DNA of 64,000 nt from Vulcanimicrobiota bacterium (GTDB lineage Bacteria; Vulcanimicrobiota; Vulcanimicrobiia; Vulcanimicrobiales; Vulcanimicrobiaceae): positions 186,001 through 250,000 of the forward strand of contig JAAXCX010000001.1 in NCBI GenBank assembly GCA_013036105.1, written 5' to 3'. The position numbers and the translations under genes were made by a program. The first letter of the stretch is position 1. Each line of letters starts with the position of its first letter. Below are positions 2,346 to 10,660 of this stretch, piece after piece. The notes beneath the pieces are model-generated. The model worked only from the letters and a program-made list of their open reading frames with translations. It had not been told where the DNA came from and did no database searches.

Positions 2346-3405
2346 CGGCGAACTGCGCGAGAAACTGCTCGATGACCGGCTGCGCGACGCCCGCGTCGTG
2401 CAGGCGCTGCTTCATGGTTTCTGCCGACGCGGGCGGCGTGACCAACAGGAAAGGCGACGCGGTTGTGTTGCCGGAGATGCGCACGGCCTGCGCGGCGGCC
2501 GGAATGAGCGCTGTTTGGTAACGGTGCAAGTGCGCGCTCCCGTCATCGCAGGCGAGCTCGAGTTCGTCTTCGAGCGTCATGACGATGAGCGGACGGTCGT
2601 GCGTTCCCATTGAGGCCGGCGTTTCGGTCGCGGTGACGCGCTCCACGATGAAGTGCGAATCGGCGATCAGCGCCGTCCGCGCAAAGCCCTCGTAGGCGTA
2701 GGCGAGCTCGGAAAGCGCACCTGACGTTCCGGCCTTATAGTTCAAGACGTCGCCCGCTTTTTGCACGTGCAGCTCGCGCGGCTTGCCGTCGGGTCCGACG
2801 CGGTTCCAGTCGAAGATGCGGTAGGTCAAATCGCTGGCCTGCTGCGTCTCGAAGATGACGATGCCCGCTCCGATTGCGTGCAGCGTTCCGGCGGGGATAT
2901 AAAACGCATCGCCCGCTTCGATTGGTACGCGGCGCAAAATGTCTCCGAGCGATCCGTCGGCGACGCGCTGCTCGTACTCTTCACGCGTCGTGTCGCGTGT
3001 CCAGCCCATCACGAGCTCCGCGCCCGGTTTGGCTTGCAAGACATACCAGCATTCGGTCTTGCCGTTGGGTTGATGTTCGACGCGCTGCGCGTAGGCGTCG
3101 TCGGGATGCACCTGCACCGAAAGTGAATCGCAGGCGTCGATGATCTTCGTAAGGATAGGAAAAATGCGTGACGGATCGATCGAAGCCAGCAGTTTAGGGC
3201 CGAGTGATGCGCGCAACTGCGCGACAGTTTGCCCCGCGAGCGGCCCGTTCGTCACGGGATTTTCATCCCAGCACTCCCAGCTCTCGCCGATTTTCGCGGT
3301 CGGATCGCCGTCTTTGCCGAACTCCTTGACCAAATCGCTGCCGCCCCAAATCGCCGGCGCGAGTTTGGGCTGGAGAACGTACGGATAGAGCGAACCTTCA
3401 GACAC
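2338..3405 (-). CDS. manA: mannose-6-phosphate isomerase, class I type
   Basis: 355 residues starting at GTG. It interconverts fructose-6-phosphate and mannose-6-phosphate. The cupin core is visible: SLSVQVHPDDAYAQ and GKTECWYVLQAKPGAELVMGW carry zinc-binding Gln/His/Glu residues, and PAGTLHAIGAGIVIFETQQASDLTYRIFDW is the second conserved block. The N-terminus (LAPAIWGGSDLVKEFG) is typical of the short Firmicutes-like form. Its GTG lies 8 bases inside the end of the PabB-PabC gene, so it is the distal gene of that operon. It supplies mannose phosphate that the phosphomannomutase near 60 kb could use. Confidence 0.92.
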   Translation of the reverse strand: MSEGSLYPYVLQPKLAPAIWGGSDLVKEFGKDGDPTAKIGESWECWDENPVTNGPLAGQTVAQLRASLGPKLLASIDPSRIFPILTKIIDACDSLSVQVHPDDAYAQRVEHQPNGKTECWYVLQAKPGAELVMGWTRDTTREEYEQRVADGSLGDILRRVPIEAGDAFYIPAGTLHAIGAGIVIFETQQASDLTYRIFDWNRVGPDGKPRELHVQKAGDVLNYKAGTSGALSELAYAYEGFARTALIADSHFIVERVTATETPASMGTHDRPLIVMTLEDELELACDDGSAHLHRYQTALIPAAAQAVRISGNTTASPFLLVTPPASAETMKQRLHDAGVAQPVIEQFLAQFAAS

Positions 3406-4984
3406 GATTGCGATCGCTTACCAGCTCGGCTTTCAGTAATCCGCGCGCCGAGTTTCCCACGAATACCTCGTCTGCAGAACGTAAGTCGTTTTCATACATC
3501 ACCCGTTCGACGGCATCGCCGTGCGAAACCATAGCGTGGCGAAGGACGCCGGGCAGAACGCCGCTGCCCAGCGGCGGCGTATACAGCGTTCCGCCGATCC
3601 GGACGAAGAGATTGGTCCGCGATCCTTCGGTCAACTCGTCGCGTTCGTTTTGCAGCAGCGCATCGAAACATCCCGAGCGCTGCGCGCACTCAGCGGCCGC
3701 GTCGTGAGCGGGGCGCCAAGACGTCTTGTACTTGAGCATCGCATCGCCGGACCAGACTCGTTCGTCCGAAACGCGGATCGCGATCCGGTCCGGGCGCTCC
3801 CGCAGTGGCTCGGTCGCGACCTCCGCCGTTCCGTCAAGCAGCAGACGGATTCGAACCAGCGTAGGCAGTCCGCGCGCATTGATCTCTTCCAATTTGCGGC
3901 GCAGCTCCGTCTCGTCGAACGTGATCGCGAAATGTTCTGCTGTTGCGCGCAAGCGTTCGAGATGCGCGCTGACGTCGCTCGGGCGCGGTCCGCACCGCAA
4001 CGTTTCCACACACGCAAAAGTCTCTAGAGCAGGTTTGAGGAAAGCGGTTTTGAGCGCCACCTCGTTCCATTCTTCCGCGGCTTGCGAATCGCTGACGATT
4101 CCTCCGCCGGCATCCAAACGGCCCGCGCCCTGCGCGCGATCGATCTGCAGCGTGCGGATCGCGACGTTCCACCACCCGCGTCGTTCCGGCGTCAGATAAC
4201 CGATGCTTCCGGTGTACACTTCACGGGTTTGCGGTTCGAAGCGCGCAATGTGCGCCATCGCCGCGCGTTTGGGCGCACCGGTGACGCTGCCGCACGGAAA
4301 AGTCGCGCGGAATATCTCGCTCAGACTCCGCTCGGGCGCAAGCGTTCCTGAAATCGTGGACGTCATCGTCGCAAACGTCGGGTAGCGCTCGACCGAAAAG
4401 AGTTCGTCAACGCTCACGTCCGCGCAGATCTTATGCAAGTCGTTGCGCAGCAGATCCACGATCATCACGTGCTCCGCGCGATTCTTGGCGTTTTCCAACT
4501 CGGCGGCCGCTGCCGGGGGCGCCGTCCCTTTCATCGGTTTGGTGACCAGGCGGGCGCCGTCAAATTGTAAGAAGAGCTCCGGCGAAAACGAAAGCAGGGC
4601 GCGATCGCCGTCTTCCACGTAGGCGCAGTAGCGAGCTTCGCTTTGCTTTGCCAGCAGACAGTATGCATCGAACGGCTCGCCCGAAAACGAGAAGTCGAAG
4701 GGCAGCGTATAGTTCACTTGATAGACTTCACCGTCGCGTATGGCCGATCGAATCGCGCCGATGGCTTCGTCGTACTCGCTTCGTGCAATGCGCGGCACGG
4801 GCGGCGTCATGCGAAATTCGCGTGACCCCGAGTCGAGATCGATCGTCTTGGGCGCATCGTAAACGCCCAGGCTGGTTGCGCCCAGTTCGTAAGAAAGGAA
4901 CCCGGCGATGTAGTAGCCTGCTGAAAGTGCCGCACCGGCGGCGTCGAGCGCGTTCCATGCTTCGTCCGGCGAAGCGGCTCTCAA
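3398..4984 (-). CDS. pabB: aminodeoxychorismate synthase component I fused to aminodeoxychorismate lyase (PabB-PabC)
   Basis: 528 residues from a TTG. Residues up to about 335 are a chorismate-binding domain: KPMKGTAPP, NRAEHVMIVDLLRNDL, the PCGSVTGAPKRAAM block and DAGGGIVSDSQAAEEWNE are the anthranilate synthase I/PabB signatures. From about residue 345 the chain becomes a PLP class IV aminotransferase-fold lyase. Together they make p-aminobenzoate for folate. Homology clearly begins before the TTG: the frame upstream to 5032 reads PALLFDSPIHV, which matches the usual PabB N-terminus, but it contains no ATG, GTG or TTG. The true start may be the ATA at 5032-5030 (overlapping the stop of the upstream gene) or a CTG. 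manA overlaps its end. Confidence 0.9.
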   Translation of the reverse strand: MRAASPDEAWNALDAAGAALSAGYYIAGFLSYELGATSLGVYDAPKTIDLDSGSREFRMTPPVPRIARSEYDEAIGAIRSAIRDGEVYQVNYTLPFDFSFSGEPFDAYCLLAKQSEARYCAYVEDGDRALLSFSPELFLQFDGARLVTKPMKGTAPPAAAAELENAKNRAEHVMIVDLLRNDLHKICADVSVDELFSVERYPTFATMTSTISGTLAPERSLSEIFRATFPCGSVTGAPKRAAMAHIARFEPQTREVYTGSIGYLTPERRGWWNVAIRTLQIDRAQGAGRLDAGGGIVSDSQAAEEWNEVALKTAFLKPALETFACVETLRCGPRPSDVSAHLERLRATAEHFAITFDETELRRKLEEINARGLPTLVRIRLLLDGTAEVATEPLRERPDRIAIRVSDERVWSGDAMLKYKTSWRPAHDAAAECAQRSGCFDALLQNERDELTEGSRTNLFVRIGGTLYTPPLGSGVLPGVLRHAMVSHGDAVERVMYENDLRSADEVFVGNSARGLLKAELVSDRNRV

Positions 4985-5028: not shown

Positions 5029-5664
5029 CTATGACGCGCAGATTTCCCCGCGTTCCACGATCGACTTGAAGCGCTGCAAATCTTCGGCGATTTGCTTTTG
5101 CGGTTCTTCACCCAAGAGTTTTGCAATCGACGCCCCGAATCGCGCGAGCGGTACGTATTCAAGAACGACGCGCACGTCGGTGACGCTCCCGCGCTGATCG
5201 AAGTGGACCGATCCGGCGTGATTGATCGCCGAACCGGGCAGCGAACGCCAGCCGATGAGTTCGTCCGGCACATCGTTGATGATCTCGGCTTCCCACGAAA
5301 GGAGCTTTCCGGCCGGCGCGTGGACGCGCCAGCGAGATCGCGTCGGCGTCAGCACGGTGACGTCGTCCAGGTGATGCATGAATTGCGGCAGCGTCTCCAG
5401 ACGACGCCAAAACGCGTAGAGCCCGGCGGCGGGCATCTCGATCGCGATCGTCTCCTCGACGCGCACGCCCGTGCCGTAAGGAACGCTCGCATTGCGATTG
5501 TGAGTTTGGCCGTCCGGCACCGACGCGATTCCGAGGGCGGCGTAGATCGTGCAGTAACCGGTGGCGGCGCGGTAGAGCAGGTGAGCCGCGGCAGCGCCCA
5601 TCAGCATTCCGGCCCCGAGCGAGAGCCACCGTTCGGAAGGGGCAACGTTGCGCCGGTTGTGCAT
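5029..5664 (-). CDS. membrane-anchored SRPBCC (polyketide cyclase/START-like) protein
   Basis: 211 residues from the ATG at 5664, chosen because an AGGAGAG ribosome site sits 6-8 bases upstream; an earlier in-frame start at 5709 has none. The N-terminal 60 residues carry glycine/alanine-rich hydrophobic segments (LSLGAGMLMGAAAAHLLYRAA) like the YgaP/DUF2892 membrane domain. From about residue 70 the chain is a SRPBCC ligand-binding fold (VEETIAIEMPAAGLYAFWRRLETLPQFM is cut here into two recognisable parts: IAIEMPA..LYAFWRRLETLPQFM). Proteins of this layout are common in soil bacteria and have no settled function. It lies between the folate genes; its stop overlaps the probable start of pabB. 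Confidence 0.82.
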   Translation of the reverse strand: MHNRRNVAPSERWLSLGAGMLMGAAAAHLLYRAATGYCTIYAALGIASVPDGQTHNRNASVPYGTGVRVEETIAIEMPAAGLYAFWRRLETLPQFMHHLDDVTVLTPTRSRWRVHAPAGKLLSWEAEIINDVPDELIGWRSLPGSAINHAGSVHFDQRGSVTDVRVVLEYVPLARFGASIAKLLGEEPQKQIAEDLQRFKSIVERGEICAS

Positions 5665-5697
5665 GCGATTACTCTCCTCGTCCCTAAGTACTGCTGC

Positions 5698-7107
5698 GTG
5701 CGCGTCCACGTCGGCATCGGCTCGAACCTCGGCGACCGGCAGGCCAACATTCTGGCAGCTCTGCAGCGGCTTCGCCGCAGAAGCCGCGTCGTGGCGGTTT
5801 CGTCATTTTTTGAAAGCGCCCCCGCGGAAGGCGCCGAGGGCCCGCCGTTTTTGAACGTAGCGGCCGAACTGGAGACCGAACTCGATCGCGATAGTTTTCA
5901 GGAATTGGCGCGCGGCGTCGAAGTTGCGGTGGGACGTCCGGGCAAACGGCACCTGGCCGCCCGGGCGATCGATATCGACCTGTTGGCGGCCGGCGACGAT
6001 TACGTGCATCCAGCGCTCGCGCAGCGTCCCTACAATCTGGTGCCGCTTGCCGAAATCGCGCCGCAGTTCGCGCAGCTCGCGGCGTCCCTGAAATCGAACG
6101 GCATACACCCGCGCGCTCGCTCGCTGCACTTCGATGCGAACCGCCAGGAAGAAACGCCCGACGTGAAGCTCTCGCTCGATCGCGTCGGCGTCTCACGCGT
6201 GCGCCGGATCGTGCGGCTGAACGTGGCGGGCCGCGAACAAGTTTTCAACGGCGAGTTCACAATGGTCGCCGACCTTGCGACGGATAAAGCCGGCGTACAT
6301 ATGTCGCGGTTTCACGAAATTTTGGAAGAAGCGGCGCTTGAAGTGCTCGCGCGGGCCGATGCGCCGGCGCGCATGGAGAGTTTGGTCGAGGCGATCGCGC
6401 GGGAGATCGTGCGGACGCAACGCGCCGTGCGCGCCGACGTGCGGCTGCGCGCCGACTTTGCGCTCGAACGGTGGACGCCGGTGAGCGGAAAGCGCGGCGA
6501 GGAAACGTACACGCTGACGGGCATCGCGCACGCCGACGCCGCCGGCGTTCGCCGCGCGATCGGGATCGAAGCCGAGGGCATGACGGCGTGCCCGTGCGCG
6601 CAGGCCATGGTCCGCGAGCAAAGCTTTTCCGATCTGCGCGAAGCCGGCTTTTCCGAAAACGACGCGCGGCGCGCGCTCGAAGCGCTTCCCGTTGCCACGC
6701 ATAACCAGCGCGGGCGCGGCAGCGTCCTCATCGGCGCGCTTTCGCAAGAGATGCCCACGGTGGAAGATCTGGTTGAGATCGTCGAGAGCGCGATGTCGAG
6801 CGAAACGTACGATCTGCTCAAACGGCCGGACGAGTTTTTCGTGGTGAACAAGGCGCATCACAATCCGAAGTTCGTCGAAGACGTCGTGCGCGGGATTTTG
6901 GCGGGAGCGCTCGAGATGTATGAGGATTTTCCGGACGGGACGTTCATCAGCGCCTCTCAAGTCAACTACGAATCGATTCACAAGCACGACGCGTTTGCCG
7001 AGGCGTTCGGCACCTTTGGCGAACTTCGCGGTGAGCTGCGCGGCGGCACATACGCCGGCCGCAAGACGGACCTAACGGCTTGGCTCTCGACACGGCCCTC
7101 GTCTTAA
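5698..7107 (+). CDS. folK-folE2: fused 2-amino-4-hydroxy-6-hydroxymethyldihydropteridine pyrophosphokinase / GTP cyclohydrolase FolE2-MptA type
   Basis: 469 residues from GTG 5698. Residues 1-150 are FolK: GIGSNLGDRQANI, FFESAPAEG..PPFLNVA, ARAIDIDLLAAG and PYNLVPLAEIAP follow the family in order. From about residue 160 the chain is the FolE2/MptA family of type IB GTP cyclohydrolases: SLDRVGVSRVRRIV, KAGVHMSRFHEIL, and GMTACPCAQ with the metal-binding Cys near residues 298-300, then THNQRGRG and RPDEFFVV..AHHNPKFVED. The first enzyme opens GTP to start the pterin, the second activates the later pterin alcohol, so both are folate steps. No stop or frameshift separates the halves. It is divergent from the SRPBCC/pabBC operon. 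The fused layout is unusual. Confidence 0.93.
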   Translation: MRVHVGIGSNLGDRQANILAALQRLRRRSRVVAVSSFFESAPAEGAEGPPFLNVAAELETELDRDSFQELARGVEVAVGRPGKRHLAARAIDIDLLAAGDDYVHPALAQRPYNLVPLAEIAPQFAQLAASLKSNGIHPRARSLHFDANRQEETPDVKLSLDRVGVSRVRRIVRLNVAGREQVFNGEFTMVADLATDKAGVHMSRFHEILEEAALEVLARADAPARMESLVEAIAREIVRTQRAVRADVRLRADFALERWTPVSGKRGEETYTLTGIAHADAAGVRRAIGIEAEGMTACPCAQAMVREQSFSDLREAGFSENDARRALEALPVATHNQRGRGSVLIGALSQEMPTVEDLVEIVESAMSSETYDLLKRPDEFFVVNKAHHNPKFVEDVVRGILAGALEMYEDFPDGTFISASQVNYESIHKHDAFAEAFGTFGELRGELRGGTYAGRKTDLTAWLSTRPSS

Positions 7108-8615: not shown

Positions 8616-9570
8616 GTTTCTTGCTCTAACCGGCGGCGCCGCCGCCGCGTGTGCGATCCCGCTGCCGGCATTTGCCGCCGCTGAATCGGCGCTCGTTCTG
8701 CACACAGCGACCGGATCGATCTTTGGAACGGCCATGGTGCCGGCCGCGAAGGTTTCGCCGGTCGTGCTGCTGATTGCCGGTTCCGGGCCGACGGATCGCG
8801 ACGGCAACAATCCGCTGCTCCCCGGGAAAAACGATTCGCTGAAGATGGTCGCCTCGGCGCTCGCGGCGCGGGGCATCGCGTCGTTGCGTTACGACAAGCG
8901 CGGCATTGCGGCGAGCGCCGCGGCGATGACGGCCGAAAAAGATATTCGCTTCGATACGTACATCGACGATGCGGCCGGTTGGGTGGCGCTCCTCGCGCGC
9001 GATCCGCGATTCGCGCACATCAGTATTGCCGGCCATAGTGAAGGCTCGCTGATCGGCATGATCGCGGCGCAGCGCGCCGCAGTGGCAGCGTACGTTTCGC
9101 TTGAGGGCGCCGGGCGGCCGGCGTCGACGGTTATTCGCGAGCAGTTGCGTCCGGCACTGACGCCCGAGTTGTTGGCACAAGCCGATACGATCATCGCTCA
9201 ACTGAACGCGGGCAAGGTTTACACCGGCGCGCTACCGCCCGAACTGCAGTCGCTCTTTCACGCCTCGGTACAGCCCTATCTGATTTCATGGTTCAAGTAC
9301 GATCCCGCCGTCGAGATAGGTAAGCTGAAAATTCCCGCGACGATCGTGCAAGGTACCGCCGACGTACAGGTCACTATGGCCGATGCGCAAGCGCTCAAGA
9401 GCGGCGATCCCCGCGCGAGCCTGGTCGTCGTGCCGGGCATGAATCACGTGCTCAAGATCTCACCGGACGTTTCGAGTCAGGCCGCGATCATCGCCGGCTA
9501 CACGAACCCAGCCCTGCCGGTTGCGCCGGCGGTTGTCGACGCGGTCGCTTCCGCCGCCAAAACTAAATAA
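8593..9570 (+). CDS. secreted alpha/beta hydrolase
   Basis: 325 residues from ATG 8593, overlapping the amidohydrolase end by 23 bases. The N-terminus (KFLALTGGAAAACAIPLPAFAAA) is an export signal with a cleavage site after about residue 28. The mature part has the alpha/beta hydrolase layout: LLIAGSGPTDRDGN (oxyanion loop), LRYDKRGIA, the nucleophile elbow GHSEGS, GTADVQV for the acid and GMNHVLK for the histidine. The SGPTDRDGN line is typical of a small family of periplasmic esterase/peptidase-like hydrolases. It ends convergently with mrp, overlapping by 8 bases. Substrate unknown. Confidence 0.85.
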   Translation: MQKIERSKFLALTGGAAAACAIPLPAFAAAESALVLHTATGSIFGTAMVPAAKVSPVVLLIAGSGPTDRDGNNPLLPGKNDSLKMVASALAARGIASLRYDKRGIAASAAAMTAEKDIRFDTYIDDAAGWVALLARDPRFAHISIAGHSEGSLIGMIAAQRAAVAAYVSLEGAGRPASTVIREQLRPALTPELLAQADTIIAQLNAGKVYTGALPPELQSLFHASVQPYLISWFKYDPAVEIGKLKIPATIVQGTADVQVTMADAQALKSGDPRASLVVVPGMNHVLKISPDVSSQAAIIAGYTNPALPVAPAVVDAVASAAKTK

Positions 9571-10660
9571 TCGAGATCGTTTCCTTCGGCCTGGGATGCG
9601 CCTCGATCGCTTCGAGTAGCGCGCCGGCAAGTTGGTCGCAGATAGGATCGTCGATCTCTTCGACGCGGCCTTCGTCAGCGAGCCGAGCTTTTTCCGGATC
9701 GATGGGAATGCGCGCCAGCAGCGGCGCTTTCGCGAGCTCAGCGACGCGCTCCGCATAAGACGGACCGAAGATTTCGTATGTGTTTCCCGTGTCGGGCGCG
9801 ACGAAGTACGACATGTTTTCAACCACGCCGAGTATCGGTTTCTTCAACTGATGAACGAGGTTCGCGGCTTTGCGCACGATCATCGTCGCGAGCGCTTGCG
9901 GCATCGTCACCAGGATGACGCCGTCGATTGCCAGCGACTGTAAAACCGTAAGCGGCGCGTCCGACGTCCCCGGCGGTAGATCGATCAGTAGATAGTCCAG
10001 ATCGCTCCACAGCACTTGCTCGTAAAACTGACGGATAACGCCCGACAGAATCGGACCGCGCCAAATCATCGCGGTATCTTCCTGATCGGTGAGCAGATTC
10101 GAACTGACGATTTCGATCGCCGTGCGCGATTGCGCGGGCACCATGAGCGGCGGCGCGCTCGCGCCTTGCGGAACGGGTTTGGCGTTTGGATCGACTTCGA
10201 GCAACAGCGGCGTGCGTAAGCCGAAGAGTTTTGGAATGGACGGCCCGGTGATGTCGGCGTCGAGAATGCCGACGCGCAGATTCCGGCGACGCAGCCCGAG
10301 CGCGATCAACGCGGTGACGAGCGACTTTCCGACGCCGCCTTTGCCCGACATGATCGGCACGACGTGCGAAATCTTGCCGTGCCGTTTGAATTCGCCCGGC
10401 GCGCGGCGCAGCGGAATGCGATCTTCGTTGCTGATGTTCGGCACGAAACCCGAAAGCCGGGCCTGCACGAGAGCAGCGATGATCGGCTCGATGCGAAGGC
10501 CGTGGGCTTTGGCGCCCTGCTCGATCGTTTCGTACTTGTTGACGCCGCAGCCGGCGCAGTGCAGGCCGAATTTCCCCAGCACCTCGGCCGCGATGGGCAG
10601 ATCCCGGACCAACTCGGCGATATTGCTTTGCGGCCCGATCGCCATTTCGAGATGCGGCAT
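9563..10660 (-). CDS. Mrp/NBP35-type ATP-binding protein with N-terminal DUF1858-like domain
   Basis: 365 residues. Residues 1-70 form a DUF1858-like small domain with HCAGCG, a motif seen in iron-sulfur related proteins. From about residue 95 it is a P-loop ATPase: SGKGGVGKS (Walker A deviant), DADITGPSIPKLFGL, and DYLLIDLPPGTSD. Mrp proteins carry and transfer Fe-S clusters using a C-terminal CxxC. Here the equivalent site in VENMSYFVAPDTGNTYEIFG has no cysteine, so a canonical cluster-binding role is not supported by that motif; the N-terminal CxxC may take over. It is a single-gene unit, convergent with the alpha/beta hydrolase. Confidence 0.88.
   Translation of the reverse strand: MPHLEMAIGPQSNIAELVRDLPIAAEVLGKFGLHCAGCGVNKYETIEQGAKAHGLRIEPIIAALVQARLSGFVPNISNEDRIPLRRAPGEFKRHGKISHVVPIMSGKGGVGKSLVTALIALGLRRRNLRVGILDADITGPSIPKLFGLRTPLLLEVDPNAKPVPQGASAPPLMVPAQSRTAIEIVSSNLLTDQEDTAMIWRGPILSGVIRQFYEQVLWSDLDYLLIDLPPGTSDAPLTVLQSLAIDGVILVTMPQALATMIVRKAANLVHQLKKPILGVVENMSYFVAPDTGNTYEIFGPSYAERVAELAKAPLLARIPIDPEKARLADEGRVEEIDDPICDQLAGALLEAIEAHPRPKETISII

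Follow-up and report, generated by a model that had tools for sequence, protein, structure and literature searches.

A FolK domain joined to an MptA/FolE2-type GTP cyclohydrolase in a single protein of a Vulcanimicrobiota bacterium and its relatives

The folKE product of Lactococcus lactis combines HPPK activity with that of a GTP cyclohydrolase I (PMC6153639); this organism has a folKEPQC cluster (PMC1971073) and, in Table 2 of that paper, it is listed as using FolE rather than FolE2. HPPK is also known as a module of multidomain folate enzymes in FolB-FolK, FolK-FolP and FolB-FolK-FolP fusions (PMC4224340), and the product of archaeal MptA is 7,8-dihydroneopterin 2',3'-cyclic phosphate (PMC3087415). 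The protein described here is encoded in a window of 64,000 nucleotides (the whole stretch of DNA analysed) from a 2.34 Mb MAG that is 95% complete and, like folKE, it carries FolK and a GTP cyclohydrolase I in one chain. However, the cyclohydrolase of L. lactis folKE is a type IA FolE (PF01227) that is not homologous in sequence to the MptA/FolE2 (PF02649) half of the window protein. There are thus two non-homologous ways in which FolK and a GTP cyclohydrolase have come to share a chain, an argument that a link between the first and a late pterin step is useful. Fusions of the FolB-FolK or FolK-FolP type (of which structures 2cg8, 2bmb and 4pzv were matched) join consecutive steps, whereas the present one joins the first to a later, non-consecutive step. 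The first-pass annotation, made from the sequence of the window, was right that FolK is known fused to FolB or FolP, but a cyclohydrolase partner has its precedent in folKE. No description of a fusion between FolK and an MptA/FolE2-type enzyme was found in the open-access literature searched, which is not proof of novelty, nor in the passages of PMC1971073 retrieved by keyword, and domain databases probably list the PF01288+PF02649 architecture. The fusion gene, its parts and the two genes preceding it are listed below, with E. coli HPPK numbering checked against 1dy3 and the cyclohydrolase residues placed by alignment with 3d2o.

3398..4984, minus strand: PabB-PabC (aminodeoxychorismate synthase + lyase) fusion; PF00425, 4.5e-74, and PF01063, 1.1e-32
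5029..5709, minus strand: SRPBCC-family gene, between PabB-PabC and the FolK-MptA fusion
5698..7107, plus strand: FolK-MptA/FolE2 fusion gene, 469 aa, GTG start; full length kept in relatives
5710..6063, plus strand: HPPK (FolK) domain, residues 5-122; PF01288, 3.5e-24; Foldseek to solved HPPKs (8sk1, E 7.7e-12)
5719..5736, plus strand: GSNLGD motif, residues 8-13, start of the fold; aligned N10 = E. coli N10
5962..5979, plus strand: R89-A-I-D92-I-D94 = E. coli R92, D95 and D97 (Mg2+ site, catalytic arginine); invariant in 58 aligned fusions
6007..6027, plus strand: H104-PALAQ-R110 = E. coli H115 and R121 by alignment; E. coli segment 105-112 just before it deleted
6064..6144, plus strand: linker, residues 123-149; AlphaFold2 confidence low at 142-149
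6145..7038, plus strand: MptA/FolE2-type GTP cyclohydrolase domain, residues 150-447; TIGR00294, 269 bits; PF02649; Foldseek to 2r5r, 5k95 and 3d2o
6589..6597, plus strand: C298-P-C300 = Neisseria C147-P-C149; invariant in 58 aligned fusions
6700..6702, plus strand: H335 = Neisseria H159; invariant in the same 58
6832..6834, plus strand: E379 = Neisseria E201; invariant in the same 58
6979..6987, plus strand: H428-K-H430 = Neisseria H246 and H248; invariant in the same 58

A reading-frame check found no interruption between the GTG at 5698 and the stop codon at 7105-7107, a frame of 469 codons. This single continuous frame holds FolK motifs and then FolE2/MptA motifs, as had been claimed at first pass: all the motifs named are present and both domains score above their cut-offs. 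Pfam HPPK gave 85.9 bits (gathering cut-off 25.7) and Pfam GCHY-1 228.5 bits (1.3e-67, residues 150-434, gathering cut-off 25), while the NCBIfam models TIGR01498 (folK) and TIGR00294 (MptA) were passed with 68.2 bits over 54.1 and 269.4 over 220; the FolE2 model NF010200 gave 158.8 bits, below its cut-off of 215. The AlphaFold2 model had a mean pLDDT of 85.8 and, with a pTM of 0.63, its domain-to-domain arrangement is not reliable. In Foldseek searches with this model, the N-terminal half matched HPPK structures (8sk1, 5etq and 1rtz) and the C-terminal half GCYH-IB structures (2r5r, 5k95, 3d2o and 8g6c). The fusion of FolK and an MptA/FolE2-type enzyme in one protein is real, and the domain identities and the folate/pterin pathway had been named correctly.

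Profile searches covered 98 genomes, own included, among which we distinguish the same family (f1), a sister family in the same order (f2) and another order of the same class (f3; Ca. Eremiobacterota). Matches to both halves were found in 60 of 61 f1, four of four f2 and 13 of 14 f3 genomes, some of them cut by contig ends or in pieces. Relatives at 44-95% identity, from independent MAGs, carried the same uninterrupted fusion, and in the 84 distinct full-length loci aligned the frame ran without a stop from the match onward. The fusion is old and common to nearly the whole class. Outside the phylum only a minority of genomes had full fusions: 11 of the 201 sampled from the phylum to which a "Chloroflexia" MAG belongs and 6 of 120 from the class of a "Rubrobacter" MAG (two samples that overlap, since G261, G103 and others are in both, and in which the taxon labels of MAGs may be wrong), as well as two "Caldisericota" MAGs and one "Lentisphaerae" MAG.

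The positions of Neisseria C147, H159, E201 and H246, which we take to be the metal-site residues of GCYH-IB structures, are kept in the fusion as C298, H335, E379 and H428. With archaeal MptA the C-terminal domain shares a score above the TIGR00294 cut-off, and the haloarchaeal MptA of Natrinema was the best among the plasmid matches listed (35% identity, 3e-28); we know of no FolK fusion of archaeal MptA. With bacterial FolE2 (GCYH-IB; 5k95, 3d2o, 8g6c) it shares the fold (Foldseek E about 1e-17) and the metal-site positions, but it is longer, lies below the FolE2 model cut-off and, in a cyclohydrolase-domain tree built by a quick method, the fused domains fell on one side of a branch and the unfused FolE2s of the phylum's other classes formed a separate clade. 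With an MptA-type sequence, the product may be the triphosphate, as for FolE2, or, as for archaeal MptA, the 2',3'-cyclic phosphate. No GTP cyclohydrolase I other than the C-terminal half was found in the own genome, where profile searches gave one PF02649 match and no match to type IA FolE (PF01227). Among the class genomes searched, type IA FolE occurred only in G033 (PF01227, 161 bits; loci L208 and L209), which is also the only f1 genome without the fusion; since FolE naturally replaces the fusion there, the cyclohydrolase role is supported. As an enzyme of the MptA/FolE2 type, this half would open GTP and so supply folate synthesis.

The own genome yielded two HPPK matches, the fusion and a separate gene that belongs to a folP-folB-folK cluster on a contig (C8) other than that of the fusion:

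C8:113755..114129: separate FolK
C8:114174..114494: folB
C8:114572..115270: folP

In a 73-row HPPK tree, all fused domains and all separate FolKs were split at one branch (98/89, 98% of bootstraps, the bootstrap being not fully settled). The fused lineage is therefore not a copy of the local folK, a recent origin from it being ruled out by the separate clades, and the simplest reading is one old fusion that spread by descent and transfer; the N-terminal half would then be the HPPK domain of an old, fusion-specific lineage. The fused HPPK was the only one found in 8 f3 genomes that are 92-97% complete and in 5 of 6 genomes from outside, Chloroflexota/Rubrobacter-like ones among them, absences that are less than certain because the genomes are MAGs. 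If these genomes make folate, the FolK step has to come from the fused domain and, as the sole HPPK found there, it is very probably active. As a separate observation, the separate FolK in the folP-folB-folK cluster of f2 and f3 genomes has a fusion partner of its own, a SAM-methyltransferase domain at its C-terminal end (PF01288 + PF13649; L206:1777-3066, minus strand, and L198:4043-5350, plus strand).

The FolK half combines conserved and altered residues. Among the 84 fused domains of f1 and f2, N10, N55, R92, D95 and D97 are present in all, R82 in 83, R121 in 82 and E77 in 76, and the window protein keeps the Mg2+ aspartates and the arginines (D92, D94, R80, R89 and R110 for E. coli D95, D97, R82, R92 and R121). 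In the same set Gln50 is replaced by Gly in 84/84 and W89 by Leu in 77/84, the segment 105-112 is lost in about 62/84 and H115 in 37/84; L45A is another of the pocket changes. Separate FolKs keep both Q50 and H115 (41/41), and Q50 is also kept in 13/13 fused domains of f3. Compared with the canonical pocket, the window protein has G48 for Q50, L86 for W89 and the 105-112 deletion, and only H115 is kept (H104). In helix 1, R14 (83/84), Q23 and R26 (both 84/84) are fixed in the fusions at positions that vary in separate FolKs. The fused FolK of the own genome keeps the Mg2+/ATP machinery and has an altered pterin pocket; with Q50G, L45A, W89L and 105-112 deleted, this half may have ceased to be an HPPK. 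Because of the changed pocket and the second, canonical FolK, its HPPK activity is not to be taken for granted.

Pairwise dN/dS (Nei-Gojobori) within the own genus was 0.05-0.14 for the fused FolK, 0.03-0.15 for the cyclohydrolase and 0.13-0.23 for the separate FolK, single values being rough because dS reached 1.7, near saturation; the fused FolK was mostly below the separate one. In lineages lacking H115 it was still about 0.02-0.2, and in one other group up to 0.4. The low values indicate that the domain is kept for a reason, and it seems to be kept for more than a spare copy of an enzyme already present.

The fusion, its conservation, the gene complement, the residue changes and the purifying selection are observed, and from them we infer the catalytic activities and their coupling. 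We believe that the whole is probably best explained by a two-domain pterin-synthesis protein, made up of the sole cyclohydrolase found and a kept, coupled or partly repurposed HPPK, the last being most likely what the fused FolK of the own genome would represent beside the canonical one. A single polypeptide would tie the first and last pterin steps for equal dosage, assembly into a larger complex or feedback, all of which are more likely than direct channelling. It had been proposed at first pass that the fusion may channel or couple these steps; coupling is retained here, but direct channelling is unlikely because the two joined steps are not consecutive. Dephosphorylation and the FolB aldolase step intervene, and FolB is encoded separately, on a different contig, so that one-step channelling within the fusion chain is impossible.

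The alternative that survives best is that the fused FolK of this family has lost HPPK catalysis and now serves the cyclohydrolase in a regulatory or structural way, such as by sensing ATP/Mg2+ or 6-hydroxymethyl-dihydropterin as feedback, while the separate FolK does the work. The substitutions at Gln50 and W89, the loss of 105-112 and H115, the retention of Q50 and H115 in separate FolKs, the constraint on the H115-lacking lineages and the interface-like helix 1 are all consistent with it. Against it, R82, R92, D95, D97 and R121 are all but invariant, which is unneeded in a purely structural domain, and in f3 and outside it stands as the sole HPPK found. We regard this alternative as possible but rather unlikely, and lean slightly towards an active or partly active HPPK in the FolK half of the window protein. 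A more specific proposal, in which the HPPK domain was freed by the separate FolK and came to regulate the GTP cyclohydrolase or form an interface with it, reading ATP/Mg2+ or a late pathway intermediate, we put forward tentatively, as unlikely in its own right; if true, the first committed step of folate synthesis would carry a feedback domain derived from an enzyme. Eremiobacterota provide a natural series, from a sole HPPK to a changed pocket that stays under selection next to a spare FolK, on which one can test whether a catalytic domain is turning into a regulatory one.

It is improbable that the fused FolK half has become redundant and is decaying by drift since the separate FolK took over. 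The changes do concentrate at the substrate pocket and are confined to lineages that hold a separate FolK as well, and one group reaches the dN/dS of 0.4 given above; however, in the own genus the fused FolK is more constrained than the separate one, and loss of the FolK domain was seen in none of the f1 genomes that have the fusion.

The genes around the fusion bear on the cofactor it serves. The adjoining PabB-PabC fusion noted at first pass is borne out by its two Pfam domains, and 14 of 99 related loci have a homologue upstream of, and divergent from, the fusion. In 15/99 loci, about 19-110 bp upstream of the fusion and on the same strand, there is another gene for dihydropteroate synthase (folP2; assigned to PF00809 in f2), which ties the fusion to folate; these loci belong to f2 and part of f1, beside the folP of the folPBK cluster (L185:3126-4481, L188:5218-6432 and 13 more). 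That the fusion serves methanopterin rather than folate synthesis is very unlikely. In one "Caldisericota" MAG (L104:3864-8335) it follows the gene for beta-RFAP synthase (205 bits with TIGR00144, cut-off 113.5) and is itself followed by a dihydromethanopterin reductase-like flavoprotein and a TIGR00284 dihydropteroate-synthase-like gene, both below cut-off, and the other (L106) shows the same tetrahydromethanopterin-type cluster, judged by gene lengths and order. But both MAGs also carry an ordinary folP, so that the fusion module may feed both cofactors there; the own genome has folP and folB, and folP2 adjoins the fusion in f2. Profile searches of 19 Eremiobacterota genomes, own included, gave no beta-RFAP synthase match above cut-off; methanopterin is therefore not a likely product in them, and such a role was rejected for the own genome. 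With a fused lineage common to several bacterial phyla and a methanopterin-type cluster in two MAGs, one module may feed two cofactors.

The weakest alternative, a practically negligible one, is an assembly or frame artefact joining two genes, as the Chloroflexota locus L231 with its halves in different frames might suggest, but L231 has N bases at the join, and the recurrence of the fusion in more than 80 distinct full-length sequences from independent MAGs rules out frameshift or misassembly. The first-pass annotation had cautioned against a stop, frameshift or assembly error between the halves, and the check revealed none.

Some minor observations remain. The adjacent, unfused folK-folE2 of Chloroflexota G267 was considered as an evolutionary intermediate and ruled out, as it has N bases at the join. 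Directly downstream of the fusion in the window, an amidohydrolase gene (PF07969; 7080-8615, plus strand) has a predicted start that overlaps the fusion end, and a homologue follows on the same strand in 30/99 loci. Further on, positions 9563-10660 (minus strand) encode a Mrp/NUBPL-type ParA protein with an N-terminal DUF1858 domain.
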